DNA of 64,000 bases from a virus, in IMG/VR virus record IMGVR_UViG_3300003690_003063, positions 1 to 64,000 of that record. The stretch is one strand, 5' to 3'. The position numbers were made by a program, and so were the translations under genes. Position 1 is the first letter of the stretch; the number at the start of each line of letters is the position of its first letter. The notes below the pieces were generated by a model that worked only from the letters and a program-made list of their open reading frames with translations, was not told the DNA's origin and searched no databases. Below, one piece after another: positions 11,523 through 40,301 of this stretch.

Positions 11523-11924
11523 ATGTCGTCAGGTTTAGCAGTTAGATTGCCACTTATGGTGGACAGTGTTTTTGGTCCGTATAATCTTATTACGGATTTT
11601 GGGGATTTAGCTTCTCAAAATTTAAAAATGTTAATTTTAACGAATCCGGGCGAACGCATGATGGACACCAGCTTTGGGGTTGGCCTGCGCCGATGGTTAT
11701 TTGAGCAAAATGCTCAGTCTACTTATGCGAGCATTGAAGGGGAGATTATGGCACAAGTTAGACGTTATCTTCCTTATGTTGCTATAGAGCGTGTAGATTT
11801 TATGGCGCCCGAAGGTAACCCCGAGTTATTTCCTAATCAAATCATTGTAAAGATTTACTTTGAAGTTGTTCCACTTAAGTTATCCTCGGTCCTGGAAATA
11901 GATGTTAATACTAGCATCAACTAA
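11523..11924 (+). CDS. gp25: Baseplate wedge protein, T4 gp25-type (GPW/gp25)
   Basis: A 133-residue protein of the gp25 family. The conserved core is NPGERMMDTSFGVGLRRWLFE at about residues 41-61, with Glu44-Arg45 corresponding to the EPR motif that anchors the sheath-initiation fold. gp25 sits in the wedge core and links the baseplate to the contractile sheath, so the virion has a contractile tail. The ATG at 11523 follows an AGAGGG ribosome site in a short intergenic gap, and the gp6-type gene follows after 23 bases, the usual order. Confidence 0.9.
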   Translation: MSSGLAVRLPLMVDSVFGPYNLITDFGDLASQNLKMLILTNPGERMMDTSFGVGLRRWLFEQNAQSTYASIEGEIMAQVRRYLPYVAIERVDFMAPEGNPELFPNQIIVKIYFEVVPLKLSSVLEIDVNTSIN

Positions 11925-11947
11925 TTATATTGGAGTTGGTAATCTAA

Positions 11948-13741
11948 ATGGCAAAGAAACTTACACGAATAGACTATACGAGCCGCGACTTTGACTCAAT
12001 CCGCCGAGACTTAGAAAATTTCGCTAAGAGGTATTACCCCAATACCTATAAAGATTTTAATCAAGCTTCGTTTGGTTCATTAATGCTCGATACGGTAGCA
12101 TACGTGGGCGATATCTTATCTTTTTATTTAGACTACCAAACAAATGAAAGTTTTTTAGATTCAGCCATTGAATATAACAATGTGGCCCGTCTCGCGCGCC
12201 AACTAGGTTATAAATTAAAGACATCCCCCGCATCTTATGGTATCTTAACCTTTTATATAGAAGTCCCGGCGACCCTAAACGGAGTAGGGGTTAATAGCGA
12301 CTTAATTCCAGTTCTTCAGGCCGGTACCACACTTTCATCTACTGGAGGCGGCTTCTATACTTTATTGGATGATATTGACTTTTCAGAGGAGAATAATCAG
12401 GTTGTTGTCGGCTCGGCCGACGGGGCTTCTGGTGTTCCACAAACGTATGTCATTCGAGCAACCGGCCGCGCCGTCTCTGGTCGCGGTGCGGTAGAGAGTA
12501 TTAAAGTGGGAGATTTCCAAAGATTTCTAAAATTTCAACTAGCTGCAGCTAATATTAGCAATGTTATACGAGTTGTAGACACCGAGGGCAATGAATATTT
12601 TGAAGTAGACCATCTTTCACAAAATATAGTTTATAAAGCACTTCGAAATTCGTCAGCTTCCCGCACCACTGTGCCTAATTTATTACGAGCCGTCCCGGTA
12701 CCTCGCCGCTTTGTGGTTGAAACCATAAACGGCCAGACATTTATACAGTTTGGGTATGGGTCGAACGACTCTCAGTTATCTAATCGAGTGGTTGATCCCA
12801 CCGAGTTGGTATTGGATCTTAATGGCCGAACCTATACCACAGATTTAGATTTTGACCCCACTAACCTTATTAGTACCGATAAATTTGGTATCGCCCCATC
12901 GAGCACTACTCTGACTATTGATTATAGATTCAATACTACCGGCGACGTTAATGCTTCGATCAATTCGATTACTACCGTTGTAACTCCACGCTTTAAATTT
13001 CAGTCTCAAGGTTCTATCTCACGAGCAGATAGGTCGAATGTACAATCATCTTTAGAGGTTACAAACGAAGAGCCTTTTGTTGGTAGTATTAGTCTTCCGT
13101 CTTCTGAAGAAATACGGCAAAGAGCATATAGTTACTTCGCAACACAAAACAGAGCCGTAACCGCGCAGGATTATCAGGCCATTATTTATGGCATGCCGGC
13201 AAAATTTGGAATGATCAAGCGGTGTAACATAGCAAAAGATTCAGCAGAGTTCAAAAGAAATATAAATGCCTATATTATATCAGAGACGAATGCGGGGAAG
13301 CTGACGCCAGCCAATACCACTCTCAAAAACAATCTTAAAAATTGGCTGCTTCAATACAAAATGATTAATGATACAATTGATATCATAGACGCAACCATCG
13401 TTAATTTTGGTGTAGAATATGAAATTTTGATTGATATGTCCGCCAATAAGTACACCGTTATTAACCTTTGTAATAGTGCCCTTGTTTCACTATATTCTCA
13501 AAAAATGGAAGTAGCAGGAGCAATTTATATTACGGATGTCTATAGAGCCCTCCAAAAAGTCGACGGCGTCCTCGATGTAACGTCCGTCGAGATCATCTTG
13601 AAAAACGGAGGCATATACTCAGAATCTAGCTATGATATGGAACTCGCCCTATCTGCTGACGGTCGAAGAATTTTAGGAGAAAAGAATGTAATTTTTGAAC
13701 TTAAGTATGCCAATATTGATATTAAGGGAAGCGTTAGATAA
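11948..13741 (+). CDS. gp6: Baseplate wedge protein, T4 gp6-type (baseplate J-like)
   Basis: A 597-residue protein with the N-terminal signature of gp6/baseplate-J proteins: TRIDYTSRDFDSIRRDL, followed by the ASFGSLMLDTVAYVGDILSFYLDYQTNESFLD segment in which the wedge dimerisation helices lie, and the ARQLGYK motif. gp6 forms the inner ring of the baseplate that holds the wedges. The C-terminal part (about 380-560) carries the AQDYQAIIYGMP segment typical of the family. The stop overlaps the next ATG by one base. Length is close to that of T4 gp6 (660). Confidence 0.9.
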   Translation: MAKKLTRIDYTSRDFDSIRRDLENFAKRYYPNTYKDFNQASFGSLMLDTVAYVGDILSFYLDYQTNESFLDSAIEYNNVARLARQLGYKLKTSPASYGILTFYIEVPATLNGVGVNSDLIPVLQAGTTLSSTGGGFYTLLDDIDFSEENNQVVVGSADGASGVPQTYVIRATGRAVSGRGAVESIKVGDFQRFLKFQLAAANISNVIRVVDTEGNEYFEVDHLSQNIVYKALRNSSASRTTVPNLLRAVPVPRRFVVETINGQTFIQFGYGSNDSQLSNRVVDPTELVLDLNGRTYTTDLDFDPTNLISTDKFGIAPSSTTLTIDYRFNTTGDVNASINSITTVVTPRFKFQSQGSISRADRSNVQSSLEVTNEEPFVGSISLPSSEEIRQRAYSYFATQNRAVTAQDYQAIIYGMPAKFGMIKRCNIAKDSAEFKRNINAYIISETNAGKLTPANTTLKNNLKNWLLQYKMINDTIDIIDATIVNFGVEYEILIDMSANKYTVINLCNSALVSLYSQKMEVAGAIYITDVYRALQKVDGVLDVTSVEIILKNGGIYSESSYDMELALSADGRRILGEKNVIFELKYANIDIKGSVR

Positions 13742-24300: not shown

Positions 24301-26074
24301 GATGGCAGACAACACTTTAAGTTCAATTTATGAGATGTTTATACAAGACCCAGTCAGTTTCGTGTCCAAAGAACAAGATCAATTTACTGGGATACCAGCT
24401 AAAGAGGGAGAGAAGTTTGCTATGACATTTCATGTTAACCGAACGCTAGGTAGAGATGGCAAAGCAGATAGAAATAAATTTGAAATGTACAGCAGAAATA
24501 GTGCCTTTGGTCCCCCTGTGGTTTTGGATGCCGGCGCCGAGACGGCCGCCGGCGGCCCGGGGGATGGCAACATTGAGTTTACTGCTTCGTGTTCACCCAG
24601 TACCCCTTGCTATATAAATGGCACTAGTTCTGTTACAATCGTTGCCACCGCTTCTTTTGGCGGCTTCCCTTCTTTGGCAGATCTTTTATCTTCCGTAGAA
24701 TATATATATGATACACAGCTAGAGTCAGATAGTTACCACAAAAAAGCGATGGGGTATTGGTTTGCTCAAAAAGTGTCAGAAAGTTTTAATCTATCTGAAG
24801 TTATGGGACAAGACGATTCGTCCCGATGGCTAATTCAAAGTAAATTTGAAACTCCTATGTTCAATTTCTCCAACGTCTCGGCCGATGCTCCTGTAGCGGC
24901 CGATGTCTCTCTGCGCCCTGGGGCTATTAACACCGTAACGACGAAAGGAATTGGGCATCAACTCGGCACGATTTTGGCAAAAGACGAAGGGGTAGAATGT
25001 TTTATAACAACGCCAACTTTTGTGAACTCTCCCACTTATGGTCGTATAACCAATCCGAAGTCCTTATCCAAACTCGTGGGCTTTCAGGAGGGTGTTAAAA
25101 AGAAGCTTGGCGTTCTAAAAAATGAGTTCCGGCTAGAAGAGGCCGTGGTCGTTGTGCCATATATACAACGTAAGCGGAGGCGTGAATTCCTCAAGTTCCC
25201 ACGGGCCCGGGCCAAACTAACAAGTTATCAAAACTTGCTATTGGCTATGAAAAAATATATTTTCCCTCCCAAATTTGATTTTACTAGATTTAGAGAGGTA
25301 AAGCCAGTTTTAATGTATGTATTTGAATACGGAATGGACTTAAATCAGGACGATCTTTCCGCTATCTGGCAGAATTTGCCTCCCGGCCAACGAAATATAA
25401 ATTGTCATCTTTGTGGATGTACTGATACCAAATTTGAATTGAAAGAAATAGAGATCGAAGAACGAGAGTTGGTAAATAAAATATTAGCTAAGGATGAAGA
25501 CTTGTATTGGATGGTTTTTAAGGTTAAGAAAAGGGCGGCTCGCAATTTTGAAAAGACTAGGAGATCTTTTATATCTTCCGAAACCCAGGATATTCCAGCA
25601 GCTGTTGGAGAATATTCATATAATTGGCCTTATGATAATTTCTCGTTGGTAGAATTGGTGAAAATAGAGGAGAGTGTACGATGGATATCGGAGGAGATCT
25701 GCCCAGAATGTGAAGAAGATCCATGCGAAGATCCGGAAGATGATGCTCCCACTCCGTCGCCCGCACCTCCCGTTAATCCTACGGCTGACGCGCCCGTTCC
25801 GACTGCGCCGAAGGGATTGGGAACGAGAGTCCTTAAAAGAAAAGGTAGGACATCTGCTGAGCCTCGAGGAGGCGCCGACTTCCAAGAAACGATCGTTCTT
25901 AGACAAGGTGATCTGGACGTCGACACCCAGTTCACTACGACTACGGACGGCAGAATAGAGGCGTCCTATGACCCGCGCGGCACTCCCACCGAGATTGTTG
26001 ATCCTGATGCGGTCTTCGCCGGCTCAGGTGGAAGATCTGGCGCCATTAAGATAAAAACTGAGGATGAGAGATAA
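15332..26074 (+). CDS. Giant virion protein with inserted LamG domains (3580 aa)
   Basis: One uninterrupted 10.7-kb reading frame, among the longest single proteins expected in a phage of this type. The N-terminal 150 residues are charged; a LamG/concanavalin-like domain follows (about 155-285 and 525-610), interrupted by a second LamG domain (285-526), and a third LamG lies at about 1870-2082. A conserved-looking helical block (about 1350-1460) is rich in Phe, Tyr and Arg. Near the C-terminus are a Cys cluster (CHLCGC, about residue 3361) and a Pro-rich linker (about 3472-3500). LamG domains bind sugars or proteins, so the protein probably helps form the host-facing baseplate periphery or fibres. 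No frameshift or stop was seen. The structural role is inferred from context. Confidence 0.8.
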   Translation: MSFRSLFDKAVTVKSLANKSAEEIGAQIESVGYHTEDILHEERFIPQVDFSKPETFARFGSAEEYYGESIDRIIGDYPYDGSLRERLKWENESTYIDLHILDNLYPRTTGWITMSAGGYGPLEGSITADGYGMPTNVEYIYLEGGPHPSPHGTSPYNINFTGSNYLEATKNRQSNLKFDLANSGSTVEFWLKKEEFHLDSTKKEVIFDLWNHEDTSSADYGRFRLELSGGGVVPAGSNPVLLTVMSGTLGFESTSIAPSTFVASDIVGGSWNHYAVSVKNTTGGKSVHFDLGSTDAINIGEADLWQGLIGGAGDAALPWTLSAWVWLDSIPTSGEREIINFSNSDISLVLDPAGTDNFELDIAGATRGITRSGTIYAQRWYHLVGTFAGGNDGALTFYVNGEDDNNAHATVDNPTGIAGSDCYIGNRNSLAGAFPGYIDEVAIWNKALSLAEVEEVFNHGVPPNLLGFDSAENLIAWYPLGDNSTVKLDGTNVRSVDNQVSDIVGGYHGFGAGGTLSGSQVVDYSPLNNSVTTKFYVNGELKNVKQISTCPPGSARAVDVLTGSLAQIDSPIVARIGSLICSPAGSSALTGSGKLMAGLDEFRYWKAYRSSKDIGRFWFTQVGGGTNNDPEPFIDTQEKVNTNLGVYYKFNEGITGYASIDSTILDYSGRVTNGLWAGFTSSASPRNTGSAIVSSSAAIKEFEDPIIYALHPEVVTLKTNLQESGSAYDINNNSAIYNSIPAWITEEDEEGQKQLRYLTQIMGSYFDTLHLQMDTLNQFRDISYVSGSEKPLPFSAKMLNSNGFVSPEIFLDADILEVLDDRSEDRIYAKSLNDIKNLIYKNIYNNLIYIYKSKGTEKSFRNLIRCFGIDDELIKLNLYASNTTYEYRENRRNVVVADKIINFNTTGNTAAVIYSSNTASAVDPTASPPSYTISDTAAFITSSALLTGGYATTLETDVFFPLKKEQSDNTYHGTNRLSASLFGLHRVKPRPHDPAWDLTTDAGTADNCNFQVYAVRDEVDSANAYFILTGSAATVIPTLTSSLYEDLYENNSWNLSVAIKPEYYPLTPYISASNDDQDPAPTPGTPGTRTGSLNDQNYIVVFRGIQADSGEILNSFTVTGTISAPHPSFVTSSRRVFVGAHRTNFTGTLLYSTDVGINSCRYWLNYLDDQALRAHAYDTENHGPLYPHRYAFPFNPAPSFFSASYGEILNIDTLMFNWEFSQNTGSDAYGEFPVTDESSGSSLLAAAPGTPGGDDTVLPLSGTETARFGDLGKLLNKQYSAYGYGFSESSLTPVKKEHIVSSKINPLEVVSSVDQVKVLTIQEQQEFAIDSRPVNYFFSFEKSMYRTISEEMVNYFGSLRDFNNIIGAAVNRYRPNYKIMGKLRNRFFEKVANDEIDFDKFYEYYKWFDSSLSFMLGQLVPISADFAENVRTMIESHALERNKHKTPFPFLDQEKTVFEAPAISLVDYQGAVSSPDDDPQGTAFWPSSAPSRRQLGLSTRALTKVWKDTSAPIGAASAGGSAVVAQEARYLWWKNRVERDDSPLSAPFGSEFNVQRAALFAVMTQSVDLDQRRVYKFSVEGNRAFGGVGLPAGKKVNFVFAATHPWGPSNPNDSDALKNVMLANRDDLEQLLNTTDRFYGPNFKQRLGLSFNASVNDDNQADRLRTTGVNIAPFSVYSSSVSTGYVSEIASDFTGGIDFTNLHHDLVFNADIPLQSPFTEKFVGGREYRHVDISDATDTIKTRPEGFRIQFEDVKAPPGSTISNAVAIIPPNSRGLATDGEIPTGNKFRDETAKRPVNIKNILMTTASVGTRLSGALSHAKIGNYQRSYQVVQSNGRTTNDPFFQDQSFDFAQYPETLATRGRFALAPQAGKSLHFDGDTDYVRSVLPLASWESAIGGAGSDAKAVSFSMWLNADTLPSGHWIFKVGGATSTYSMQVNSDELKFIVGSSGTDPYVFSSTISTGSWTHVVATLAAGTGNKPNMYINGTLDNDSVGSATSNNIAIGGPFTIGYTAETFDGYICDFAVWDKELSAAEALTVYNGGSRANLRHLTMDNRDGDLAAAPTVNLLAWWPLGDDPRDSSDGGIFYDQMGFTNVAANNFTDDATSGISVKSPGYGGYGGVSNVANMRGNLDYKLPSRTGANSNSNIFVNRFGSPGGYEVSSRGYMGPAHEELSVYNALPYRNQHVISYGLSGSASADSTVASTIVVLDQIGKNRGLNQRATLHCGQYGSDAAYGLITAKSTRVDLGKGYVATPSWHKTNRNRKRRMELISGSIAGGPAITQLALCTTGSVYDNLWVQHPIPRSMRQYSWITASVTGSELLGLCKPECMSTSSIPLMITASGITGSDGDASEPSSQVFSLDFVGLRSYVIDPVSASSHTLGYPLASSIVSYQNHNLQTEWTTITVPTFNFLMLNRNGPYQYAMWQQTRFNNHPVVRKLRHENKIGVTLGPKPQLLSNRFSAGYTVRPTRPNSFVDYVEQPISSRYLPSLVVAEAAAGDESFDSDGNYKATYGNYFQMFSHEGLNNHLNLSVTQKYLYDNPFVSLLEYFLNNKANLMVDYSERIYPAEEVAYRNIVRNRTNFTITGSWDPKRSVAARANSQGHSITNQAAWFMKESTTFATAQPTLLARTDGTGEGQSLQSRYGISGAFDITASAVYSLRVPLGWESSPGNNKLVYGGVAAWQAGPQAGKDPYVEYDYWVHQLRLKAKDYSIVPEFRISEHIEEIINAGGDPLIDSWRLDLTGAAYPDTDSPQFWETYTNGEFMKLFGVVDDMLFETGFAAQQLSRNKLSLQCHAAIKFLPYPGFYPLQRMRDLATRFSQSYGDYVYVTASADYRTSPISSAYRAIEEPLFAPGIWFNTYKSGLAVGSYIMGISGGYDAITDAEENWARLKDIAVSNSVDSADSQFPEGVINFGSGSLLSCSITASDTAYFPVRIPFEAVYKPQFLSSKAISGSFIYDNGVGSASLSGNSGGTHLINRVSWDGQGDPLYRMMADNTLSSIYEMFIQDPVSFVSKEQDQFTGIPAKEGEKFAMTFHVNRTLGRDGKADRNKFEMYSRNSAFGPPVVLDAGAETAAGGPGDGNIEFTASCSPSTPCYINGTSSVTIVATASFGGFPSLADLLSSVEYIYDTQLESDSYHKKAMGYWFAQKVSESFNLSEVMGQDDSSRWLIQSKFETPMFNFSNVSADAPVAADVSLRPGAINTVTTKGIGHQLGTILAKDEGVECFITTPTFVNSPTYGRITNPKSLSKLVGFQEGVKKKLGVLKNEFRLEEAVVVVPYIQRKRRREFLKFPRARAKLTSYQNLLLAMKKYIFPPKFDFTRFREVKPVLMYVFEYGMDLNQDDLSAIWQNLPPGQRNINCHLCGCTDTKFELKEIEIEERELVNKILAKDEDLYWMVFKVKKRAARNFEKTRRSFISSETQDIPAAVGEYSYNWPYDNFSLVELVKIEESVRWISEEICPECEEDPCEDPEDDAPTPSPAPPVNPTADAPVPTAPKGLGTRVLKRKGRTSAEPRGGADFQETIVLRQGDLDVDTQFTTTTDGRIEASYDPRGTPTEIVDPDAVFAGSGGRSGAIKIKTEDER
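16184..16910 (+). other. LamG domain nested inside another LamG domain
   Basis: Within the 3580-residue protein (about residues 285-526). The host domain runs up to GSWNHYAVSVKNTTGGK and resumes with TTKFYVNGELKNVKQIS, the two neighbouring strands of a LamG core. Between them sits a complete second LamG reading GKSVHFD, TLSAWVWLD, RWYHLVGTF, ALTFYVNGE, GYIDEVAIWNKAL and LIAWYPLGD in order. The insert is richer in GC, with many GGC/GCC codons, than the sequence on either side. Boundaries are approximate. Confidence 0.65.
20939..21690 (+). other. Second inserted LamG domain of the giant protein
   Basis: Residues about 1870-2110 of the 3580-residue protein. The order of elements is the same as in the first insert: GKSLHFDGD, SFSMWLNAD, GSWTHVVATL, PNMYINGTL, GYICDFAVWDKELS and LLAWWPLGDD. 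Both inserts also share a WESAIGGAG/WQGLIGGAG segment. The flanks (ATRGRFALAP before, NLDYKLPSRTGANSN after) look like one continuous parent domain, but that is inference. Confidence 0.6.
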
Positions 26075-30100: not shown

Positions 30101-30403
30101 GCGCCCGGGAAAAAAGTTTTAATTCAAAAAAGCGCCCCAGTACTGCGCGGGCCCGGGATGCGTAGGATCAGACACCCTACCCGCCCAACTAGGACTCCCC
30201 GCAGCAGCGAATTTGCCGGCGCCGCTTTTCCTGCCATCGAGAGGCCTAGCGACTTTGCTGCCGTCGCTTTCCCGATCGCTGAAAGGTCCGACGACTTTGC
30301 TGGCGTCGCTTTCCCGATCGCCGAAAGGTCCGGCGACTTTGCCGGTGTTGCTTTCCCAGCCACCGAGACGCCTGGCGACGGTAGCGGGGGAGGAAGTTAC
30401 TGA
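27122..30403 (+). CDS. Large virion protein with C-terminal 14-residue repeats (1093 aa)
   Basis: A 1093-residue protein with mixed alpha/beta character and no family I can name. Residues about 440-560 and 780-830 are predicted helical; much of the rest is beta-rich. The last 60 residues are four tandem 14-residue repeats of the form S-D-F-A-G-V-A-F-P-I-A-E-R-S followed by a Gly/Ser-rich end, resembling a flexible, hydrophobic-patched linker or docking tail. The stop and the ATG of the next gene overlap (TGATG). Part of the tail-periphery block by context. Confidence 0.7.
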   Translation: MAHWHVAQGFSSRGVPTPLVKEVVIHPTLQKDSGSKYCLLTGYIQVPILGPAPLSRRDESLEQKPLSLWVKAVSSKSIINSFRGSRGKQFLNTSIANAHHKFIMSQQIIPVNTYRINKNNYLSYNPSTKKHLYFEDIKFEVRVRCPNGQLSKLKHLSLVCVVFSNFGSLHNATPTHLHKLKDNPLGRLDSGAPMIVNIINNRRVPLRSSYYVLRETLEGWGEKGDIWPGAVHKHQGWYMAGSSHSNTKHPRLRKITTANYKVKDLRFLDPQFSGQMNGFSVSQRSSPARAIGPTSLGAEEKVAAYGIEKYFSSPHYSRQSDGSALAFLNFDFMSYIKDHLEFKWIIKSEDSITSCGEILDLRVHRYRVTNTDLSSPLTPGHATTPPPPCSERLLLPIETISYVPTTNPGTVGILIEDSKMSAEPEGLYGYRIEIDVIDNSRKAIQHLADKVAKEFRKFENFLTVVNERSTKGSWGNNSYVKKHAQSLEDNSNYKQLVNLVIASLRFLFFRGSPVILKNNLLSMASPYSATLDSMYMFRDLIANYLYSLKRLVEEPIELNSERPFNNDSKIFSKEITKTNTIVFEIGEAYQNFSQEGRRVGFDYFGSTWSLEDTKDVLPLQLTAPLPGAPLLIVSFDAFVDRIVTESKKYVDFQRNDLALNKYGFLSPLVVRTPYKSLVTQKNMSLDSSLDILYAKRNAVSSIEDYPGTPQNRPTTNYYKRGLLGLEGVTYKPKKISLRELVKTTPNKTLNYIDSVSYFSSGSVFVNMDEISAVEASISGSKTTQFAMATAARQSGLQLKKRVVSYLLQELAQDYIENIELKNSNLIKGSFAYNQMVTNPKSVENLNIFEKSINWNSLVEVQYFVGSPSPNSKTPEWQTLTQSQFKRMRARGGSVLCRLKRLPSIFNVKNSFDLPIYNHLFILGPSIPIEAPLWMVPSSRTAEPRYITTFAQTIHQVRSLNQKSAQSIGTPVYSEYLMSRESVLNHKEGSTIPHAPGKKVLIQKSAPVLRGPGMRRIRHPTRPTRTPRSSEFAGAAFPAIERPSDFAAVAFPIAERSDDFAGVAFPIAERSGDFAGVAFPATETPGDGSGGGSY
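30206..30373 (+). repeat. Four tandem 42-bp coding repeats
   Basis: Four copies of a 42-bp unit at the 3' end of the preceding 1093-residue protein's gene, each coding 14 residues (consensus SDFAGVAFPIAERS). Copies two and three are the most alike; copies one and four differ at the last residues. The unit keeps frame, so copy number could change without breaking the protein. Confidence 0.85.
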
Positions 30404-33400
30404 TGGTCGGCCCCTCCTCTTTTCCAGACCAGAATATTTTTTGTATAAATTCACATATACTAGGAGAACCATTCAACCACGATGGAGTTTTGGTGCCGGG
30501 TGTGACATTCAACTCGCTTGGTACGATGGTCCACCCTAGGGTCGACAGTACGACGCACCCTCTTATTCGAGATTGGTACAATGTGCCGACAGGGGTTGAT
30601 AAAACAGCGATACTTTGTGGGATTGATCCTTACCGTCGGTCGATGTCTCTTAATTGGGGCTATCTTTATGATAGAGCTACTGGCAATCGATGGCTATCTT
30701 GCGGCTATGCCAACATGCTGGCCCAACAGGCAGCAGGCCATACTCTAACTCCTTTTATGTATACGGGAGGAGATGGTACTTCTGATAGTCTTGGTTCTTT
30801 GGGACCCGGGTCGGCCAATGCCCCCGAGCCTTTGGGCGGCATCGTCGTCTCCGGCCACTTAAAACTTCAAGTTGCCTCTTCCCCCGGGATTGTCGGAGAT
30901 AATGATGGGTGGAACTCTGCCATGACTGCCGGCGCTCTTGCCGGTAGTATATCTAATGAATATATTGATTTCTTAGATCAAGAAGGAGACGGCACTTACC
31001 TAGAAGGGGATCCTTACCTACAACGATATCTGGAGGGAGGAGTCGCGACTCTTTCCAGTCTCGGCCTGCCCGGCGTGATAGCTAAGCTTGCTACGACGGA
31101 GCCTAGCTCACAACGTCTTATAGACGCCTCAATGCAAGGAAGTTATGATGGTATCTTCGACACCGAGATCCAAGGCCCGAATCCGTCATTCACCGGCGGC
31201 CTGGAAAACAGGCGCCATCTTTTTGATCACACACATCAATTTAAATTAGGAGGCTATTACGATGAGGCCACATCTCCGCCCACCTTCGTCCCCCGGATTA
31301 CAGTTGAATCAGCCTATTATAACTATGTTCAGTCGGTTCCTTCCTATGAAGATGTCATTGCGCCGGATCATATTCTAGAGTGCTTTCTGCCAAATTATTA
31401 TATGGTCCAGACAGCTTTTCAGCACCAGGTTGAATCCCCCTCCACCTTCACCACCGGTGACCCACTCGACATCGGTTATGGCCCTCAGGCTATTCCGTGG
31501 ATGGAGCAGACCACGGCCGCCGATGCCAGCCTCGCCGGGAGCGATATGCTACAGCTATTTTTTGAGCAAGCGCACTCAATGCCCCCCGGTGTTACCCCGG
31601 GCGCTGACGGTCAGTATAATACTTCAGATGATGGTTTCGCGCCCGGGCTTACAGCACAGTCATATTGGGATCTTTGGGCAACTGCTGTAGGCGGAACAGT
31701 CCCGGGAGGATCCCCTATCTCCCAGACGCGCCTTGATACTTACGAGGCGAACTATAAAAATATTGTTATTCCTCACGGATCATTACAGTGGATTAATGAC
31801 CGCAACGGTGATCAAGCTTATACTACTGTAGGAGGCGTCCCTACTGGCGAGCCAGCGATTGAGACGTATCCTTGGGTTAATCGAATCACCATTAACACTG
31901 CCGATAATATCCTCGGCCCCGGCCTCGGCCCCGATGTCGGCCCCACCGACTTTTTTTGGCAACTTTTAAACAATACTTCTCAAGTGCCGGCAACGATGGC
32001 CGGCACCATGAGCCGCGGCCAGGCCGCGACGTGGGTAAGAATGCTCCAGCTTATGATAGCAAATTCTTTTAATCCTAACCTTCCGGCGCCGCTTCCTTGG
32101 ACCGGGAACAGTGCTGACTACCTGCGGAACACACTCCATGGCAATCAAGAGTTTTATGGGGACACCGGCGCGCCAGTAGGCAATTACTACACAGGTGGTC
32201 ACCGTTCGCATCTACATGTGGATCTGAACAATACCGGGCCGGCAACGTTAGTCAATCATACAGATGCTGCCCCTTGGCACGTTGTGGGAGGACAGAAAGG
32301 CCAGAATCTTAAGATATGTGCGGACTTCTTCTACCTATCCTGTTATATGAACTCGTCCACGGGGGCGCCCAACGATCTTAGTTTTGCTATGGAGCAGGTG
32401 GCCGGCGCAGAGAACTATTCTTCGGTGTATGCTAACGGTGATAACCACCAGTCCACGACTTCGGACGAAGTAAACTTTAGTGTGTTACGGCCGATGGGAC
32501 CGGGCAACTACAATTCCGCGGCCTCGTTGGCAGCCCTTGGTCTCGAGCACCAGGATCCCGGTTCCAACTGGGATGGGTGGAATTCTCCTCTTCTCCGCCT
32601 CATAGAGGATTATACTTTGGGCATCACGGACATGTTTAAGGGGCAGCTCGCAGCATCTTCTCCTTTAATGTATGTTATAGAAAAAAGGAGACTTCACGAG
32701 ATAAGCCCGGGCGTATACGAAACCTATGTTGATCCCGCGACCCGAGAGCCTGTACAACGGATTTTTATAACGAGGAATTTTGATGATTCGATCTCTGAGG
32801 ATATTGTATATTATGATACTCAAATCAAATACAGCCAGCCATATCAATATGATGTATATTTAATAAATATAGTTTTCGGCAGCAAGTACACATATACAGG
32901 TGTTTCTGTAACTGCTCCCAGTTATGACACCGCGGTGACGACGGTGACGACTCCGGACGTATACGGTTACGCCCCTTCGGCTTATGGAAGAGGCTTGGCA
33001 AATGCCTTGGGATTTTATCGAGAAGAGGAACGCTACGAACAGCACGGTCAGCCCGGAGACTTCCTCGGCGACTATTTTGACAACGGAACAGACACCCACG
33101 CGATCAGCCCCAATCCTAATCCTTATGCGGGTCGGGTGGAAGCTCAATACAATTTTATGAAACTCGGCGACCCGCAAGATCTTGGGACGATCGGCGACCA
33201 CCCGGACACTTCCAACCCGGCGGTTTATTATGAGGATTTTGCGGCCGCGGGCCAGCCGCTACTACAGTTTCATGAAACTGATATTGGAGAAGACGGAGGT
33301 TTTGACGGATCCAATATTGGCGCCAATCCATCGTTCGGTGGAATTCCTTTCATCGAGCAGCTGTCGTGGCAATACTCAAACCCCGGCCTCCTCGAAGCGA

Positions 33401-34893
33401 TGATAGATACTCCGCTCACCGACGCGTATAAAAAATATGGGCAGTCCGGATTTTATGTTTTTGAGCCCCCCTGGATGGCACCGGGGCAACCGGGGGGTTC
33501 CGTTGGCGCAGAGAACACAACCCTACAGTCCACAGTGAGCTCGTTTGAGTGGGTAAACAAGTTTAGTGAGTGGGCCATCAACACCAAAACCCCGGCCGCC
33601 GTTGTCGATGATCCCTTCGGCCTGCCAGGGAACGGGGAGTGGGATACCCCAGTAGGAGGCCTCTATCAGGAAAACGATGCTATGCGCATATTACGCGAGC
33701 TGACGGTGAGAATAGCGAACGACGGCATGGGATTCGACTCGAACTACTCGCAAGGTGTGGTACCATATAGTGTATACATTCCTAACGTGCCGGCCATCGG
33801 GCAGTTCGAAATCCCCAGAGAAGAGCCTGAAAACTGCTTCGTCGCAGGCACCAAAGTGGCGGCTATGGTGGATGGTCATCTTTGTGGTGTCAATATTGAA
33901 GATATCCGTGTGGGAGATTTAGTAATGTCTTATAATCTCCTTACCAACACCACAGAATTTAAGCCCGTTATTGATATGACGTCTCCAATCCATAGCGATA
34001 TAGTTGAATTTGAATTTTCTAATGGTACTACAACACAACACACCTATGATCATCCTTATTATGTTGATAAGAAAGATTGGGCGTCTTATACGCCACAAGA
34101 AACAATGGACAGATATGACCATCCGGATTTAAGGGATGTGACACAAATTGAAGTGGGAGACCAATGTAAACTTACTACCGGAGAATTAGTAACACTGACA
34201 AATATTATAGAAGTGTTTAATGGCCCCATTCAAACATACAATATTATGGTTAAGGATAATAATAATTATTTTGCTGATGAGATTTTAGTTCATAATAAAA
34301 CTACTGCCGGCCGGCCAGGCGGCCCGGAAGGGGATCCCTCTTGCTTCATGGCTGGAACGAAGATTCTTTTGCCTGCCGGTCTCTCCAAAAATATAGAAGA
34401 TATGAGAATTGGAGATTATGTGATGTCTTATAATTTGATGACCAAGGAACCTGAGCCGCAACAGGTACTCAATGTTATGTCGCCCATGCATGATGATATA
34501 GTTGAATTTAGATTTGCTAACGGGACAACAACTCAACATACTTATGATCATCCATATTATGTTGTAGATAAGGGGTGGGCATCATATAATCCCGCGGCTA
34601 CTATAAGAAGGTACAAAACTCCAGATTTAGTTAATACTTCTTTAATAGAACCCGGAGACAGGTGCCTGCATTCTGCGGGCGAAGCTGTTGTTTTGACCGA
34701 CATTACAGAAGTATTAACAGAGGCCGTACAAACATACAATATTATAGTTGAACAAAACCATAACTATTTTGCAGATGACTTTTTAGTTCACAATAAGATC
34801 GCCGGCGGCGACGACGGGCCCGACGAAGAGGACGACGACGACACCGGCGGCGGGGGCGGTGGCGGCGCTAGCGACGTGTTCCTCGAGGATTAA
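30403..34893 (+). CDS. Large virion protein ending in two tandem Hint domains (1496 aa)
   Basis: A 1496-residue protein. Residues 1-1140 are a beta-rich, Gly/Pro/Asp-rich virion-type body without a recognised family. Residues 1145-1298 and 1314-1464 are two homologous Hint (Hedgehog/intein) domains, each starting CF(V/M)AGTK and ending NYFAD..LVHNK. The remaining 32 residues are an acidic and poly-Gly tail. Hint domains break the peptide bond before their first Cys or after their terminal Asn, so the protein is likely to self-process, releasing or linking its C-terminus. The Hint parts use AT-richer codons than the body and the linker, suggesting separate origins. The +1 residue is Lys rather than Cys/Ser/Thr, so ordinary protein splicing is not expected. 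Confidence 0.8.
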   Translation: MVGPSSFPDQNIFCINSHILGEPFNHDGVLVPGVTFNSLGTMVHPRVDSTTHPLIRDWYNVPTGVDKTAILCGIDPYRRSMSLNWGYLYDRATGNRWLSCGYANMLAQQAAGHTLTPFMYTGGDGTSDSLGSLGPGSANAPEPLGGIVVSGHLKLQVASSPGIVGDNDGWNSAMTAGALAGSISNEYIDFLDQEGDGTYLEGDPYLQRYLEGGVATLSSLGLPGVIAKLATTEPSSQRLIDASMQGSYDGIFDTEIQGPNPSFTGGLENRRHLFDHTHQFKLGGYYDEATSPPTFVPRITVESAYYNYVQSVPSYEDVIAPDHILECFLPNYYMVQTAFQHQVESPSTFTTGDPLDIGYGPQAIPWMEQTTAADASLAGSDMLQLFFEQAHSMPPGVTPGADGQYNTSDDGFAPGLTAQSYWDLWATAVGGTVPGGSPISQTRLDTYEANYKNIVIPHGSLQWINDRNGDQAYTTVGGVPTGEPAIETYPWVNRITINTADNILGPGLGPDVGPTDFFWQLLNNTSQVPATMAGTMSRGQAATWVRMLQLMIANSFNPNLPAPLPWTGNSADYLRNTLHGNQEFYGDTGAPVGNYYTGGHRSHLHVDLNNTGPATLVNHTDAAPWHVVGGQKGQNLKICADFFYLSCYMNSSTGAPNDLSFAMEQVAGAENYSSVYANGDNHQSTTSDEVNFSVLRPMGPGNYNSAASLAALGLEHQDPGSNWDGWNSPLLRLIEDYTLGITDMFKGQLAASSPLMYVIEKRRLHEISPGVYETYVDPATREPVQRIFITRNFDDSISEDIVYYDTQIKYSQPYQYDVYLINIVFGSKYTYTGVSVTAPSYDTAVTTVTTPDVYGYAPSAYGRGLANALGFYREEERYEQHGQPGDFLGDYFDNGTDTHAISPNPNPYAGRVEAQYNFMKLGDPQDLGTIGDHPDTSNPAVYYEDFAAAGQPLLQFHETDIGEDGGFDGSNIGANPSFGGIPFIEQLSWQYSNPGLLEAMIDTPLTDAYKKYGQSGFYVFEPPWMAPGQPGGSVGAENTTLQSTVSSFEWVNKFSEWAINTKTPAAVVDDPFGLPGNGEWDTPVGGLYQENDAMRILRELTVRIANDGMGFDSNYSQGVVPYSVYIPNVPAIGQFEIPREEPENCFVAGTKVAAMVDGHLCGVNIEDIRVGDLVMSYNLLTNTTEFKPVIDMTSPIHSDIVEFEFSNGTTTQHTYDHPYYVDKKDWASYTPQETMDRYDHPDLRDVTQIEVGDQCKLTTGELVTLTNIIEVFNGPIQTYNIMVKDNNNYFADEILVHNKTTAGRPGGPEGDPSCFMAGTKILLPAGLSKNIEDMRIGDYVMSYNLMTKEPEPQQVLNVMSPMHDDIVEFRFANGTTTQHTYDHPYYVVDKGWASYNPAATIRRYKTPDLVNTSLIEPGDRCLHSAGEAVVLTDITEVLTEAVQTYNIIVEQNHNYFADDFLVHNKIAGGDDGPDEEDDDDTGGGGGGGASDVFLED
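33835..34296 (+). other. Hint domain 1 (intein-like, autoprocessing)
   Basis: Residues 1145-1298 of the 1496-residue virion protein. N-terminal block: Cys1145 in CFVAGTKV followed by NIEDIRVGDLVMSYN. Block with the catalytic His: TTQHTYDHPYYV. C-terminal block: NNNYFADEILVHN with penultimate His1297 and terminal Asn1298, followed by Lys. All core motifs of the family are present except a nucleophile after Asn. Confidence 0.85.
34342..34794 (+). other. Hint domain 2 (duplicate of domain 1)
   Basis: Residues 1314-1464. Cys1314 in CFMAGTKI, then NIEDMRIGDYVMSYN, TTQHTYDHPYYV and HNYFADDFLVHN with His1463-Asn1464, again followed by Lys. It is clearly a copy of the first domain; the two are separated by a 15-residue Gly/Pro/Thr linker of much higher GC content. 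Confidence 0.85.
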
Positions 34894-34898
34894 AGAAT

Positions 34899-36599
34899 AT
34901 GGTATCTTCCACAAACTGGTACATGGACATAGAAGTCTACCTGAAGAATAGTGGTCCGGACGAGGGCGGTCAAGGAGACACCTTGGAACTCCTGGACACA
35001 TTTGAATATGGCCCTTATGTCTGGGCCCACGGCGCCGTCATTACTTTAGAAGACTTTATAACGACCATTAATGATGCCAATGTGACCAGGGCAGACGCCG
35101 AGGGCATACCAATTTTTTATATCTGGGCGACTCCCTTTTTAACATCCCGCTCGCCTTCGAGCTCTGGTGCCGGGTACGTTCGCCCACGCGGGCCTAATCT
35201 AAGTAGGGCCTGGGGCGGCCTCCCGACTCTGCAGAGAAAATTGAGCTCGCCCGGGCAGCCCTACATGGCGGCCGAAGGCCACGCCGCAATGCCGCAGGAT
35301 ATGGACATCACCGCCGGCGCCAATGGCATGTACAATGGCCAACTGGTTATTCGTTACGATATATCTATGGTCGACTCCGTGTTTTGGAACGGCATCTGGA
35401 CGTCCGTCGATTATGTAGGCCCTGACGGCGCGGTGAATCCGTTCAGCGACGGCTATAGTTATTATGGATTTAAAATTATTTGGCGCACAGGAAACGAGAC
35501 ACTTGTGAGCCCAAGTACGTCAGTCACGACAACGACATACTCTCCTGCTGGTACGTACGCTGACGTGAACTACACGAAAATCCCCAATCCTTTGGCGATA
35601 AAGGCTCCATACCAGGGTTTTGATGCGTGGATGCTGGGTCCAGATAGCGACAACGACGGCATCCCCGACATCGACATCAAGGTCAACGGCGTAATTATCA
35701 CTTCTGTACATGATGATTCTCCATTGCCTCCAAACTCGGCTATAGTTCCCTATATGGGGATTAGTAATAAACTATTAATTATGTTAAATTCGAACACGGG
35801 AGAGTACGAGGCGCGCCCAGTTCCTATATTGGAAGAAGACTGGGGGAAAATTCAGGGTATTTACGGTGGCGGCAGTCCCCCACGAAACTATACCATTGAT
35901 GAAATAAAAGCACTTCTTGCGGATCCCGAGGCTGATCCAACTGATTATGCTGTAGAATACAAGAAAGACGATCCCACCACTAAATTTGAAATTTTCCGGA
36001 TGACAGAAAAACCAACCTCCTACCTAGATTTTGATACAGGAACAAACCCACACGCTACAATCGAAGAACAGCCATCCTTTGGCAAGCGCTCCGATGGAGC
36101 TTCTCTTCTAGACGATATACAACCAAATAAAAAATATTATTACTGTTTTAGGTCTATAGACGTACATCACAACATTTCTAATCCAAGTCACGTTTTCGAA
36201 GTAGAGATGGTAGACAATGACGGTCAAGTTTATATTATCTTGAATACGATTGATTTTGACCCAGGACCAAAGCGCGTTTCTATAAAGTCTGGTCGTCGGT
36301 TTATATATATTGAACCATCGCTGCAAAATCTTACGTTTGCTGACACCGACCTTCTCGAAGACCCCATTGTCCCGGGGGTAGCACTTAGTTCGATTGTCCC
36401 AACTGAGGTACCTTCCGATGATCTTTTGGGCGCCCTGCTGCCTGCCGAGGAAGCCGCCATACTTGCTGCTGGTGGCACATTGCCCCAACGAGTATGGAAC
36501 GACACATATAAAATACGCATCACTAGCAAGAAAACAAGCAGAAAAATTGATTTAAACTTAATATTCAAGAACAAGGGGGTAAAAAATCCCTCGGGTTAA
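34899..36599 (+). CDS. Virion structural protein, beta-rich (566 aa)
   Basis: A 566-residue protein in the tail block, six bases after the Hint-domain protein. Mostly beta-strand pattern; the segment from about 350 to 440 (TKFEIFRMTEKPTSYLDF ... KKYYYCFRSIDVHHNISNPSHVFEVEMV) resembles a fibronectin-III-like fold with the Tyr and Ser of strands C to G. The C-terminal 25 residues are basic and end in a KNKGVKNPSG tail. A host-surface-binding or connector role is reasonable, but no family was recognised. Confidence 0.65.
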   Translation: MVSSTNWYMDIEVYLKNSGPDEGGQGDTLELLDTFEYGPYVWAHGAVITLEDFITTINDANVTRADAEGIPIFYIWATPFLTSRSPSSSGAGYVRPRGPNLSRAWGGLPTLQRKLSSPGQPYMAAEGHAAMPQDMDITAGANGMYNGQLVIRYDISMVDSVFWNGIWTSVDYVGPDGAVNPFSDGYSYYGFKIIWRTGNETLVSPSTSVTTTTYSPAGTYADVNYTKIPNPLAIKAPYQGFDAWMLGPDSDNDGIPDIDIKVNGVIITSVHDDSPLPPNSAIVPYMGISNKLLIMLNSNTGEYEARPVPILEEDWGKIQGIYGGGSPPRNYTIDEIKALLADPEADPTDYAVEYKKDDPTTKFEIFRMTEKPTSYLDFDTGTNPHATIEEQPSFGKRSDGASLLDDIQPNKKYYYCFRSIDVHHNISNPSHVFEVEMVDNDGQVYIILNTIDFDPGPKRVSIKSGRRFIYIEPSLQNLTFADTDLLEDPIVPGVALSSIVPTEVPSDDLLGALLPAEEAAILAAGGTLPQRVWNDTYKIRITSKKTSRKIDLNLIFKNKGVKNPSG

Positions 36600-36637
36600 T
36601 AACTATTTATTTACTATTTATATAGAGAGGGACAGTT

Positions 36638-37573
36638 ATGGGATTTCTAGATAATGCCGGCGACATCATTTTGGACGCCGTTTTAACCAACAAGGGCCGC
36701 AAGGCCATCGCCAAAGGAGACGGCAGTTTTAATGTTAAATATTTTGCTTTAGGAGATGATGAGATAGACTATGGTCTATACAACAAGAACCATCCAAGTG
36801 GAAGTTCTTTTTATGATTTAGATATTCTTCAAACTCCTGTATTAGAAGCTTTTACAAACCCGGACGCCTCACTAAAATCACGCCTCGTATCCATGGACGA
36901 TAATCATCGGCTATACTGGCCTGAAATAATTCTTCGTGCTGACGCCGGGAATACATCGCCCTATTCTACTGGCGCCTTTGTGGTGGCCGCTGATCAAAGC
37001 ACGTGGGAAGCTCTTACTTCAACGGATGGCATCATGCCGGGCTACAAGCCAGTTAAGTCTTTAAATCATATTAGACTTGAACAAGGTCTGAATACCGTCG
37101 CTGTACCAAAAGATAGCACCCTAGACCTAGAATTGGTGGAAACGCAGTGGAGAGTTCAAATGGACAGGAGGCTAATTCAGATTGCTCCTAATCCATCAAT
37201 GACGACCACTACGAGCACTGCGGGCACAACAGTTTCTTTCCCGAACGCAAAGCCGTCTTTTGTAAGCCAAAACAACATTGCTACGTATTTTTTCACCCTT
37301 GGCGGGACTCGCGGTGGCTCCAGTGGATATATTACAAATTGTGCCGAAGACTCAGGGTTAGCAGGCCCCGGGGGCACCAAACTTCAATTTCGGCTCGGGT
37401 CTACTCTCGAAACTCAAACAAGCACTTATCTGTTTGATACTCTGGGTCGAACCGTAGCCTCGTGGGGGTCAGGTATTACAACTGCTCAGACGATTAATAC
37501 CGTGATTACCATTGAGGGATTAACCACCCGAGCGCGCATCGATGTTGATGTTACACTATTGAAAAAAGTATAG
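36638..37573 (+). CDS. Virion structural protein with shared N-terminal module
   Basis: A 311-residue protein that starts with the module DIILDAVLTNKGRKAIAKG followed by KYFALGDDEIDYG, like the protein at 26082. The remainder is beta-rich with Thr-rich stretches (residues 190-205, MTTTTSTAGTTVSFP). The start at 36638 follows an AGAGAGGG ribosome site in a 38-base gap. Its product probably attaches to the same type of partner as the 26082 protein. Tail or fibre component by context. Confidence 0.7.
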   Translation: MGFLDNAGDIILDAVLTNKGRKAIAKGDGSFNVKYFALGDDEIDYGLYNKNHPSGSSFYDLDILQTPVLEAFTNPDASLKSRLVSMDDNHRLYWPEIILRADAGNTSPYSTGAFVVAADQSTWEALTSTDGIMPGYKPVKSLNHIRLEQGLNTVAVPKDSTLDLELVETQWRVQMDRRLIQIAPNPSMTTTTSTAGTTVSFPNAKPSFVSQNNIATYFFTLGGTRGGSSGYITNCAEDSGLAGPGGTKLQFRLGSTLETQTSTYLFDTLGRTVASWGSGITTAQTINTVITIEGLTTRARIDVDVTLLKKV

Positions 37574-37583
37574 GATATAAGAT

Positions 37584-38783
37584 ATGGCCACAACACAAAA
37601 ATTATTTGTCCCTGGTAAAGATCAGGTTAGCACTAGAACCCTTTTACATGAAGCCGTGCCGCTTACGGGACAGCTTGCTTCCGGAACGTATGGAGGCGAT
37701 GTGACCTCACTCGGAGCGGAACCGAATGTCAAAAATTTCCCTCATGGCATGTTTCAATCTATTTATGATTATCCCTATTTAAGTTCCTCAGCAAATCATA
37801 TTTTTGATTTAACTTGTGGGTATTCAAGCAATTCTGTATTATCAGGAACTTCCGATGTGGTTCAACAGGAAAAGAAAATTAATATCTATAATCAGATGGC
37901 TCAAATTTTAGTTGGGTTTAATGAGTCTGGTTCTGTAAAAGAGTTTGATGAGGATGGGGACACTACAGAGGGCACTAAGATTCGCGAGGCCTTTTTCCTT
38001 AATTTTACTCGTCTTCTTGCGAAAGATGAAATTAAAAAAGGTAGCTTTACTTTAGAACTAGCTACAAGTGGTTCCCCCGCCGGCGCTACGAATCAGCAAA
38101 AAGGCGCCATCTTCAAGCAGACTATAAAGATTGTAGATTATAGTGGGTCCGACGGATACAAAATTAATTCTCCGGCAGGCGAGTATGGTATTTTATATGC
38201 TACGGGTTCTAACGGAGCCGGCGGCACCGGTGCTTCGGGAGATGTTTTTGTAATTGATCCGGGTTTGGTAGATGATAACGGCTATGTTAAGGCTGGTTTA
38301 CTTTATTATCAAGCCGGAATTGCTATAATCACGGCCTCGGTATTTAGCACCCTTCTTGGGCCCGCCTTCGTTGCTTATAACGGCGCCGCGCCCTCTGGCA
38401 GCTATGCTACCACTAGTGTTTCGAGTTCATTGGGAGTTGGTTCTATGACTGGTTCTCTTACTGGAAGTTCTATTTCTGGTAATGTTGATTTATTTAGACG
38501 CCGAATTGAAAATATTTCTTTCAATAACACAACTGAATTGAACTCTACGGTTTATTTCTGTCGCGCAAACCATAATGAGTTTAACTATTCTTCAAACCAA
38601 ACATATGTTAGCGCTAGTCAGTTTGTTGTAAAAACTAATTTTAATGATAGTCCGGTTTCTTATGTGACGACAGTTGGGCTTTATTCTGCTGAAAATGATT
38701 TAATGGCAGTAGCAAAACTATCCGAACCCCTGAAGAAGGATCCCTCCACTGAATTTACTTTAAGGGTGAGACTAGATTACTAA
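37584..38783 (+). CDS. Virion structural protein, paralogue of the next gene product
   Basis: A 399-residue protein. Several segments correspond to the 503-residue neighbour: KKGSFTLEL against KRGTVNLEF, GLLYYQAGIAIITAS against GIVLYEDGIILLTSS, and a near-C-terminal SYVTTVGLYSAENDLMAVAK against TYISKVAIYDEHRNLIGIAK, followed by a shared P(L/I)KK element and a closing RVRLDY/KLKLDI. This is the sort of duplicated tail or fibre protein pair seen in marine T4-related phages. Function beyond structure unknown. Confidence 0.7.
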   Translation: MATTQKLFVPGKDQVSTRTLLHEAVPLTGQLASGTYGGDVTSLGAEPNVKNFPHGMFQSIYDYPYLSSSANHIFDLTCGYSSNSVLSGTSDVVQQEKKINIYNQMAQILVGFNESGSVKEFDEDGDTTEGTKIREAFFLNFTRLLAKDEIKKGSFTLELATSGSPAGATNQQKGAIFKQTIKIVDYSGSDGYKINSPAGEYGILYATGSNGAGGTGASGDVFVIDPGLVDDNGYVKAGLLYYQAGIAIITASVFSTLLGPAFVAYNGAAPSGSYATTSVSSSLGVGSMTGSLTGSSISGNVDLFRRRIENISFNNTTELNSTVYFCRANHNEFNYSSNQTYVSASQFVVKTNFNDSPVSYVTTVGLYSAENDLMAVAKLSEPLKKDPSTEFTLRVRLDY

Positions 38784-38789
38784 GATGGT

Positions 38790-40301
38790 ATGGCGTATTC
38801 TTTCTACAAATTCACTAGAAACGATCTATTCGTTAACACATTAGAACTATACCCAGACGTTAAATATTTTATTTACAGCGGTTCGGCCTTCTATAACGAC
38901 CGGCCGCATATGTCTGGTGCTTTTACTAGTTCTGTTAATTTATGCTCGGCGAGCAACATAAGCCTGTTTGAACTGAATGTAGATCGTCGTACCGATCTCG
39001 CCACCATCGAGGATCGTACCATTGGACCTAAATGGGATATCCCCGGCATCGACGTTCCCGACGGCGTCTCTGATACTGGATTAATCTATCCTTTTCTTTA
39101 CAAAGACGGCACCCGGATGAATTTTAGAGTTAATACAGCAGAATCTTTTGCTTCAGCTCCTGCAGGCCAGGTAATAACAGGCGCCGCTTATCCTTACACA
39201 GCATCGATAACGAAGGAATTTTATGGCCCATGGACAGGCGCACCTAGGGACCTCACCGAAAACGCGGCCGGAAATCCTATAGGCACTATGGGTAGTTTGA
39301 CCTTTTTAGACATTTGCCAGACCCCGCGGTTTACTGAGTCCTATAGGCCTCCCGGTGGGGGCCTCGTGGTGAATGGAACTGTTTCGCATCTGCGATCCCT
39401 TAAAAATGTCATTAATCGATATAAAACATTTTCTCCTCATTTTGAGTATAGGTCAACATCTGGTAGCTATTTACAGAATATTCATGATCGTAATTTTGAT
39501 TCTGCTAGCGTAGGCCTCATTAGCATTCCAAGCATTTTTTATGGTTCTTCGATAAAACGCGGGACTGTTAATCTAGAATTTTATTTTACCGGTACTTTAG
39601 TAGGCCAAGCTCAAGACATAAATAGAAACGGCGAGTTAATAGAAGTATATAGTGGCTATCGCCACCCAGATGTTGAAAATTTGTCAGGCTCCGTTGTCGG
39701 GATCGTATTGTATGAGGACGGTATCATTTTGTTAACCAGTTCTGCTGCGCTGAGTCCTTCTGTGGATAATTATACTGGAAGTGTTTATCCCTCCCCACAC
39801 CCTAACGCCGGCGATCCTTCAAAAGATAACCCGCGGTGGACATATTTTGCACAGTCTCTTTCGGCGGCCGCAGATCCTGCGGGCGACCCCGACTACCCGC
39901 GCGTTAATGGTTTTATTGCTGCCCCAAGTTCCTCGTTTATAATGGAATTTAGTGGCACGACGAAAACACAGGTATTTACAATGTTTGCGACTGCTCCGGT
40001 GGGAGAGTTGAATCATTCTAATAATCCTTCATATATCAAGAATTCTTGGTATCAAAGCAGCTACACCGCCAGTATTTCTACCGGATCAAAAGGGTATATT
40101 GAAAGTGACATGAAACCAATTAAAAACGTCGTAAGTTCGGCATATGCTGATCCAACGGGCTCGTTTGAGAAGACAACTTATATTTCAAAGGTTGCTATTT
40201 ATGATGAACATAGAAATTTAATTGGCATAGCAAAGACGGCGACACCGATTAAAAAGACAGTTCAAAGGTCCTTCACCTTCAAGCTTAAATTAGATATATA
40301 A
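38790..40301 (+). CDS. Virion structural protein, paralogue of the preceding one
   Basis: A 503-residue protein whose C-terminal two thirds align by eye with the preceding protein at the segments listed there. It has an extra insertion around residues 95-180 with a hydrophobic beta pattern. The start at 38790 lies six bases after the previous stop. It closes the long structural block; the next gene codes a nuclease. Structural by context. Confidence 0.7.
   Translation: MAYSFYKFTRNDLFVNTLELYPDVKYFIYSGSAFYNDRPHMSGAFTSSVNLCSASNISLFELNVDRRTDLATIEDRTIGPKWDIPGIDVPDGVSDTGLIYPFLYKDGTRMNFRVNTAESFASAPAGQVITGAAYPYTASITKEFYGPWTGAPRDLTENAAGNPIGTMGSLTFLDICQTPRFTESYRPPGGGLVVNGTVSHLRSLKNVINRYKTFSPHFEYRSTSGSYLQNIHDRNFDSASVGLISIPSIFYGSSIKRGTVNLEFYFTGTLVGQAQDINRNGELIEVYSGYRHPDVENLSGSVVGIVLYEDGIILLTSSAALSPSVDNYTGSVYPSPHPNAGDPSKDNPRWTYFAQSLSAAADPAGDPDYPRVNGFIAAPSSSFIMEFSGTTKTQVFTMFATAPVGELNHSNNPSYIKNSWYQSSYTASISTGSKGYIESDMKPIKNVVSSAYADPTGSFEKTTYISKVAIYDEHRNLIGIAKTATPIKKTVQRSFTFKLKLDI

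Follow-up and report, generated by a model that had tools for sequence, protein, structure and literature searches.

Tandem C-terminal Hint domains followed by lysine on a predicted phage tail-region protein: candidates for BIL-type self-processing

BIL domains are already known. In Tetrahymena thermophila, the BILs of BUBL proteins are fused to ubiquitin-like domains, which they are proposed to ligate to amines. Type-A BILs end in His-Asn without a nucleophile at the following (+1) position, and they mostly cleave, ligation through the freed amine being possible (PMC4031507).

The DNA analysed here (the window) covers 64 kb out of the 112 kb of an IMG/VR record, and contains a 1496-aa open reading frame (30403..34893, + strand) in which a large body is followed by two complete C-terminal Hint domains, D1 and D2. 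The reading frame is supported by ORF calling and by a syntenic homologue in a second phage (L003), and its start overlaps the stop of the upstream gene (ATGA). D1 and D2 have several of the features by which A-type BILs are recognised: a predicted Hint fold, Cys1, a block-B Thr and His, and a terminal His-Asn without Cys, Ser or Thr at +1. The +1 residues, read directly from the sequence, are Lys1299 and Lys1465, as a preliminary description of this DNA had stated, and not the Cys, Ser or Thr that defines class 1 inteins.

Two Hint domains and their genomic context

The body (aa 1-1144; 30403..33834, +) has no family match in Pfam, PHROGs or NCBIfam, and a tblastn search with aa 1-1136 against 50,697 phage records gave no match. 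D1 (33835..34296, +) runs from Cys1145 (33835-33837) to Asn1298, with block B, Thr1214-Tyr-Asp-His1217, aligned at 34042..34053, His1297-Asn1298 at 34291-34296, and Asn1298 and Lys1299 together at 34294..34299. It is separated by a 15-residue Gly/Pro-rich linker (KTTAGRPGGPEGDPS; 34297..34341, +) from D2 (34342..34794, +), which runs from Cys1314 (34342-34344) to Asn1464, with block B, Thr1380-Tyr-Asp-His1383, aligned at 34540..34551, His1463-Asn1464 at 34789-34794, and Asn1464 and Lys1465 at 34792..34797. An acidic, Gly-rich tail of 32 residues (KIAGGDDGPDEEDDDDTGGGGGGGASDVFLED; 34795..34890, +) completes the protein; neither a toxin domain nor a Hedgehog (Hog) sterol-recognition region was found after D2, where this short tail alone remains. 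The two domains are 57% identical, both contain TTQHTYDHPYYV, and both keep Cys1, the block-B Thr and His and the C-terminal His-Asn. The block-F His position is occupied by Asn in D1 (NNNYFA) and by His in D2, a substitution that may slow Asn cyclisation in D1. The Hints are AT-richer than their surroundings, as first described, with a GC content of 0.366 (D1) and 0.386 (D2) versus 0.513 for the body, 0.689 for the linker and 0.729 for the tail; 465-nt pieces of the body span 0.441-0.553, above both domains.

PT-HINT (PF07591) matches D1 and D2 over its cut-off, and a purpose-built Hint profile, which contained D1 and D2 themselves, matches them at 6e-58 and 2e-55 with no other match in the 112-kb record. 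Given these matches and the 57% mutual identity, the Hint assignment is not due to chance. The AlphaFold2 model of D2, made with 65 relatives, has a mean pLDDT of 93.8 and a pTM of 0.89, and its top Foldseek match is BUBL BIL2 (TM 0.81/0.89); the tandem model is at pLDDT 86.4 and pTM 0.64, with low confidence in the linker and tail. A profile search against solved structures gave BUBL BIL2 at 1e-29 and CthBIL4 at 7e-25, and by both methods BUBL BIL2 ranks above CthBIL4, followed by inteins and Hedgehog. Residues, Pfam, model and structure search therefore agree with the two full, back-to-back Hints proposed in the preliminary description, and the fold on which that proposal depended is the one predicted.

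The record encodes terminase and portal proteins, baseplate wedge proteins and a weak tail-sheath match, and thus probably belongs to a phage of the contractile-tail kind. Two baseplate wedge genes lie upstream (11523..13741, +; PHROGs 261/43 and 219/10646), and four downstream genes (34899..40301, +) are conserved in order with L003 at 39-53% identity. From these baseplate genes and the synteny with L003, the 1496-aa protein is a putative virion component. Adjoining the baseplate genes is a 3580-aa ORF (15332-26074) in which two stretches match the concanavalin-like Laminin_G_3 (5e-44); it probably encodes a giant fibre or adhesin. A single ORF at 43593-46703 has matches to SbcD-like as well as SbcC-like nuclease subunits and looks like an in-frame SbcD-SbcC fusion.

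L003 carries the only homologue of the whole protein that was found, and no Hint-free version was seen among the matches. This homologue likewise ends acidic and in LED, and has one Hint, at the place of D1; D2 is absent. When the window is compared with L003, identity is 67% for the Hint, 27.5% for the body of the same protein and 24-53% for detectable neighbours. D1 and D2 sit at the end of a fast-evolving protein, and the Hints behave as a conserved module within a fast-changing, compositionally different one. In a phylogenetic tree D1 groups with the lone Hint of L003 (100/96) and D2 branches as sister to this pair (99/59); the three are joined by a Hint that another phage (L004) carries on a different protein (99/93). 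This branching indicates that D2 stems from an old duplication or was acquired separately, and is not a recent copy.

Recurrence of C-terminal Hints

Open scans with a degenerate DNA pattern of blocks F and G, leaving +1 free, were run on IMG/VR and on one genome per GTDB species; both are samples, and the counts cover the matches listed. A further IMG/VR scan with Lys fixed at +1 served to gather examples. Such degenerate patterns were far more productive than scans with a single protein or a narrow alignment, which in IMG/VR gave two relatives only; the narrow alignment gave no relatives in the genome scan. Matches in Vibrio phages were rejected as relatives in kind, being helicase inteins.

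At least 28 distinct environmental-phage ORFs contain three or four Hint matches, which in most cases adjoin directly. C-terminal Hints are no rarity among these phages, and many phage proteins carry arrays of two to four, so the tandem pair is not the exception it was first taken for. Phage proteins on which Lys+1 Hints occur include a tail fibre that also has an S74 chaperone (L108), a tail protein weakly matching hub attachment (L121) and a protein of tail-tip type (L030), and the Lys+1 class is spread over phages, bacteria and archaea. Hints on phage proteins are already present in databases as annotation. A search of the open literature, with the original BIL papers outside it, yielded no account of virion proteins with Hint arrays or Lys+1 Hints. 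Tandem C-terminal Hint arrays on phage tail-region proteins and the rule of Lys at +1 are thus apparently new, and an earlier notice of the Lys preference is possible.

Several further observations concern the hosts of these domains. A phage protein type of ~600-925 aa with 1-4 abutting C-terminal Hints is present in L012, L031, L035, L039, L052, L081, L093, L107, L115, L117, L131 and their kin. It has no family match for its N-terminal LLEINTDT or EMNT-like motif, which we take to recall ATP-grasp ligases, and the end members of its arrays lack complementary catalytic residues. In cyanobacteria, Hints of ~160 aa ending in VHNK (L140, L143, L145, L162, L167, L198, L211 and L244) keep to the Lys+1 rule, and are followed by a Gly-rich stretch and an apparent membrane segment where the contig allows. 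In Ruminococcus phage NatCom_3870 (L008), three genes of one cluster each have a CthBIL-like Hint (CFVAGT/CFIAGT..LVLTA), each preceding a different C-terminal part, which resembles a polymorphic cassette carried on a phage.

One explanation for such arrangements is that the Hints are inactive and retained as stable beta domains for adhesion, spacing or capping, with the +1 Lys forming part of the fold. Abutting arrays with degenerate end members would suit it; in one type of phage array Cys1 is missing from the first Hint and His-Asn from the last, which indicates that Hints can persist without full activity. So would Hints that are embedded, like other accessory domains, in Gly-rich stretches of tail-region proteins (L033 and L121). 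However, the near-invariance of Cys1, the block-B Thr and His, and His-Asn in intact members is hard to explain without catalysis, and we regard an inactive module as improbable. Among 149 distinct Lys/Arg+1 domains from the matches listed, compared by profile alignment, Cys1 is present in 134 of the 136 domains aligned, the other two having Ser; block B has its Thr in 132 of 142 and its His in 140 of 142. The search pattern included neither Cys1 nor the block-B His; it partly fixed His-Asn, which was left out as evidence.

The +1 residue and self-processing

The +1 residue is bimodal in viruses and genomes alike, being either Cys/Ser (true inteins) or Lys. Among the open-scan matches listed, viruses had 83 Cys, 22 Lys, 13 Ser, 3 Arg and one each of Val, Leu and Phe, and genomes had 42 Cys, 34 Lys, 26 Ser and 12 others. 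Once near-duplicates were removed, Lys made up 13 of the 18 residues other than Cys, Ser or Thr in IMG/VR and 28 of the 38 in GTDB genomes (matches listed); no comparable excess of Lys occurs at positions +2 to +7 of these matches. Lys outnumbers Arg by 40 to 3 among the matches listed, against an expectation of 68.5% Lys from the composition of these ORFs (p 1e-4). A profile search of Myxococcota and Acidobacteriota, the phyla of two GC-rich matches, gave 16 Lys (three already in the earlier set) and no Arg at +1, all Lys cases lying at GC 0.55-0.74, in addition to toxin-type Hints with varied +1 residues and inteins with Ser or Cys. The profile was built from Lys/Arg+1 domains and may slightly favour them, but as +1 is one column of 157, this bias cannot explain the 16:0 ratio. 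Positive charge alone is disfavoured as the reason for Lys by both ratios.

Lys sits exactly where the nucleophile would be, and its preference over Arg, even in GC-rich bacteria, points to amine chemistry. This raises the possibility of isopeptide splicing, in which the side-chain amine of Lys+1 attacks the Cys1 thioester and Asn cyclisation removes the Hint, so that the upstream chain becomes isopeptide-linked to Lys. Consistent with this, Lys is retained even as the very last residue, and among the matches listed block-F position 4 is Asn, Ser or Ile in the Lys class, with Asp in only 2 of 148, versus Asp in 108 of 183 domains of the Cys/Ser/Thr class. However, Asn is also found there in 59 of these 183 domains, some members carry Arg (mostly at one internal array position in one phage family), and Lys could serve other ends, such as contacting the Glu of the IED motif, which is class-specific (93% vs 22%). 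We also know of no precedent for a Lys+1 nucleophile in cis. It is possible, though unlikely, that Lys+1 Hints are a natural class of self-acting isopeptide ligases in which the +1 Lys side chain captures the thioester at Cys1. If so, phage tail proteins would mature with side-chain-linked joints or with covalent links to neighbours, and the same would extend to various bacterial and archaeal proteins.

The distance to the protein end also separates the two classes. Tails of ≤5 aa follow 4 of 15 viral and 8 of 25 genomic Lys/Arg-class domains among the open-scan matches listed, versus 1 of 59 and 0 of 53 in the Cys/Ser/Thr class. With the Lys-selected scan included, such tails are found in 43 of 127 viral Lys/Arg-class ORFs versus 1 of 83 of the Cys/Ser/Thr class (matches listed), and in 24 of those 43 the +1 residue is the exact end of the protein. 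Canonical inteins, or intein remnants that are being lost, would share the fold, Cys1 and His-Asn with D1 and D2, and TIGR01443 (intein C-terminal region) matches the 1496-aa protein twice. They are nevertheless very improbable here, given Lys at +1, no endonuclease domain, the C-terminal location that these tail lengths reflect, and the wide spread and conservation of the Lys class.

As no Cys, Ser or Thr occupies +1 and Lys stands in place of the C-extein nucleophile, cleavage or amine ligation is favoured over canonical splicing, in agreement with the preliminary description. On balance we lean towards D1 and D2 being A-type BIL-like Hints of a Lys+1 subclass, which would form a self-processing C-terminus that acts by cleavage or amine ligation. 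BIL-type processing is favoured by the presence of the catalytic residues in both domains, their conservation across the class, the BILs being nearest in structure, and the much closer similarity of the Hint than of the body to L003.

The action of the Hints, the order of steps and the fate of the products can be proposed as follows. In each Hint, Cys1 would most likely form a thioester with the preceding chain, assisted by the block-B Thr and His, and cyclisation of the terminal Asn would cut the Hint free behind. The thioester would end in cleavage, or in ligation to an amine, which may be the freed alpha-amine, a Lys side chain or the amine of a neighbour. The large body would thereby be freed of the Hints and possibly rejoined to the Gly-rich linker and acidic tail. 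In many relatives ligation to the alpha-amine would have no partner to join, because the lysine is the last residue, and tail release, suggested in the preliminary description along with crosslinking in the virion, is not the general purpose, because relatives end exactly in VHNK. The A-type BIL scheme does not explain why Lys is retained even where it ends the protein; either Lys+1 stabilises the active site, or the nucleophile is its own side chain and an isopeptide results. If active, the Hints would add to phage tail maturation a self-processing step for which the open literature searched gave no description, and would be a new source of small domains for cleavage or ligation.

Comparison with known systems

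The AXH domain of ataxin-1/HBP1 (PF08517) shows significant sequence similarity to the N-terminal two thirds of the Hints, with the class-specific GWSS..PE.T and VGD.C motifs in common; Pfam AXH matches the 1496-aa protein at 2e-21, over its cut-off, and L039 at 7e-38. However, in the alignment AXH has Tyr at the positions of both Cys1 and the block-B His, and the match ends before the C-terminal blocks. This suggests shared ancestry with the Hint and not AXH function, and the AXH domain of ataxin-1/HBP1 resembles a Lys+1-class Hint that is truncated and catalytically dead. The open literature searched gave no paper that connects AXH to inteins. For the first 112 aa of a Hint in L052 (2000-2335, +), the best PDB match is ataxin-1 (6e-8, above BIL), with GWSS..PE.T and L.VGD.C shared.

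Class 1 inteins of phage helicases, RNRs and terminases resemble D1 and D2 in fold and at both termini, but have Cys, Ser or Thr at +1, commonly have Asp in block F, and lie within conserved proteins. Pretoxin Hints (PF07591) are alike in that this Pfam family matches D1 and D2 over its cut-off, whereas the toxin-type domains among the matches read HTYFVG..VHN with varied +1 residues, and no toxin domain follows D2. BUBL BIL2 of Tetrahymena thermophila (PDB 6y75, 6tmm) is the nearest solved structure by profile and by fold, but its ubiquitin-like cargo is absent from the 1496-aa phage protein. The A-type BILs, represented by CthBIL4 (PDB 2lwy), share with D1 and D2 the fold, Cys1, block B, His-Asn, the lack of Cys, Ser or Thr at +1 and the variable host proteins; D1 and D2 differ from them in their tandem arrangement, in their location on a phage tail-region protein, and in the near-obligatory Lys at +1 of their subclass.
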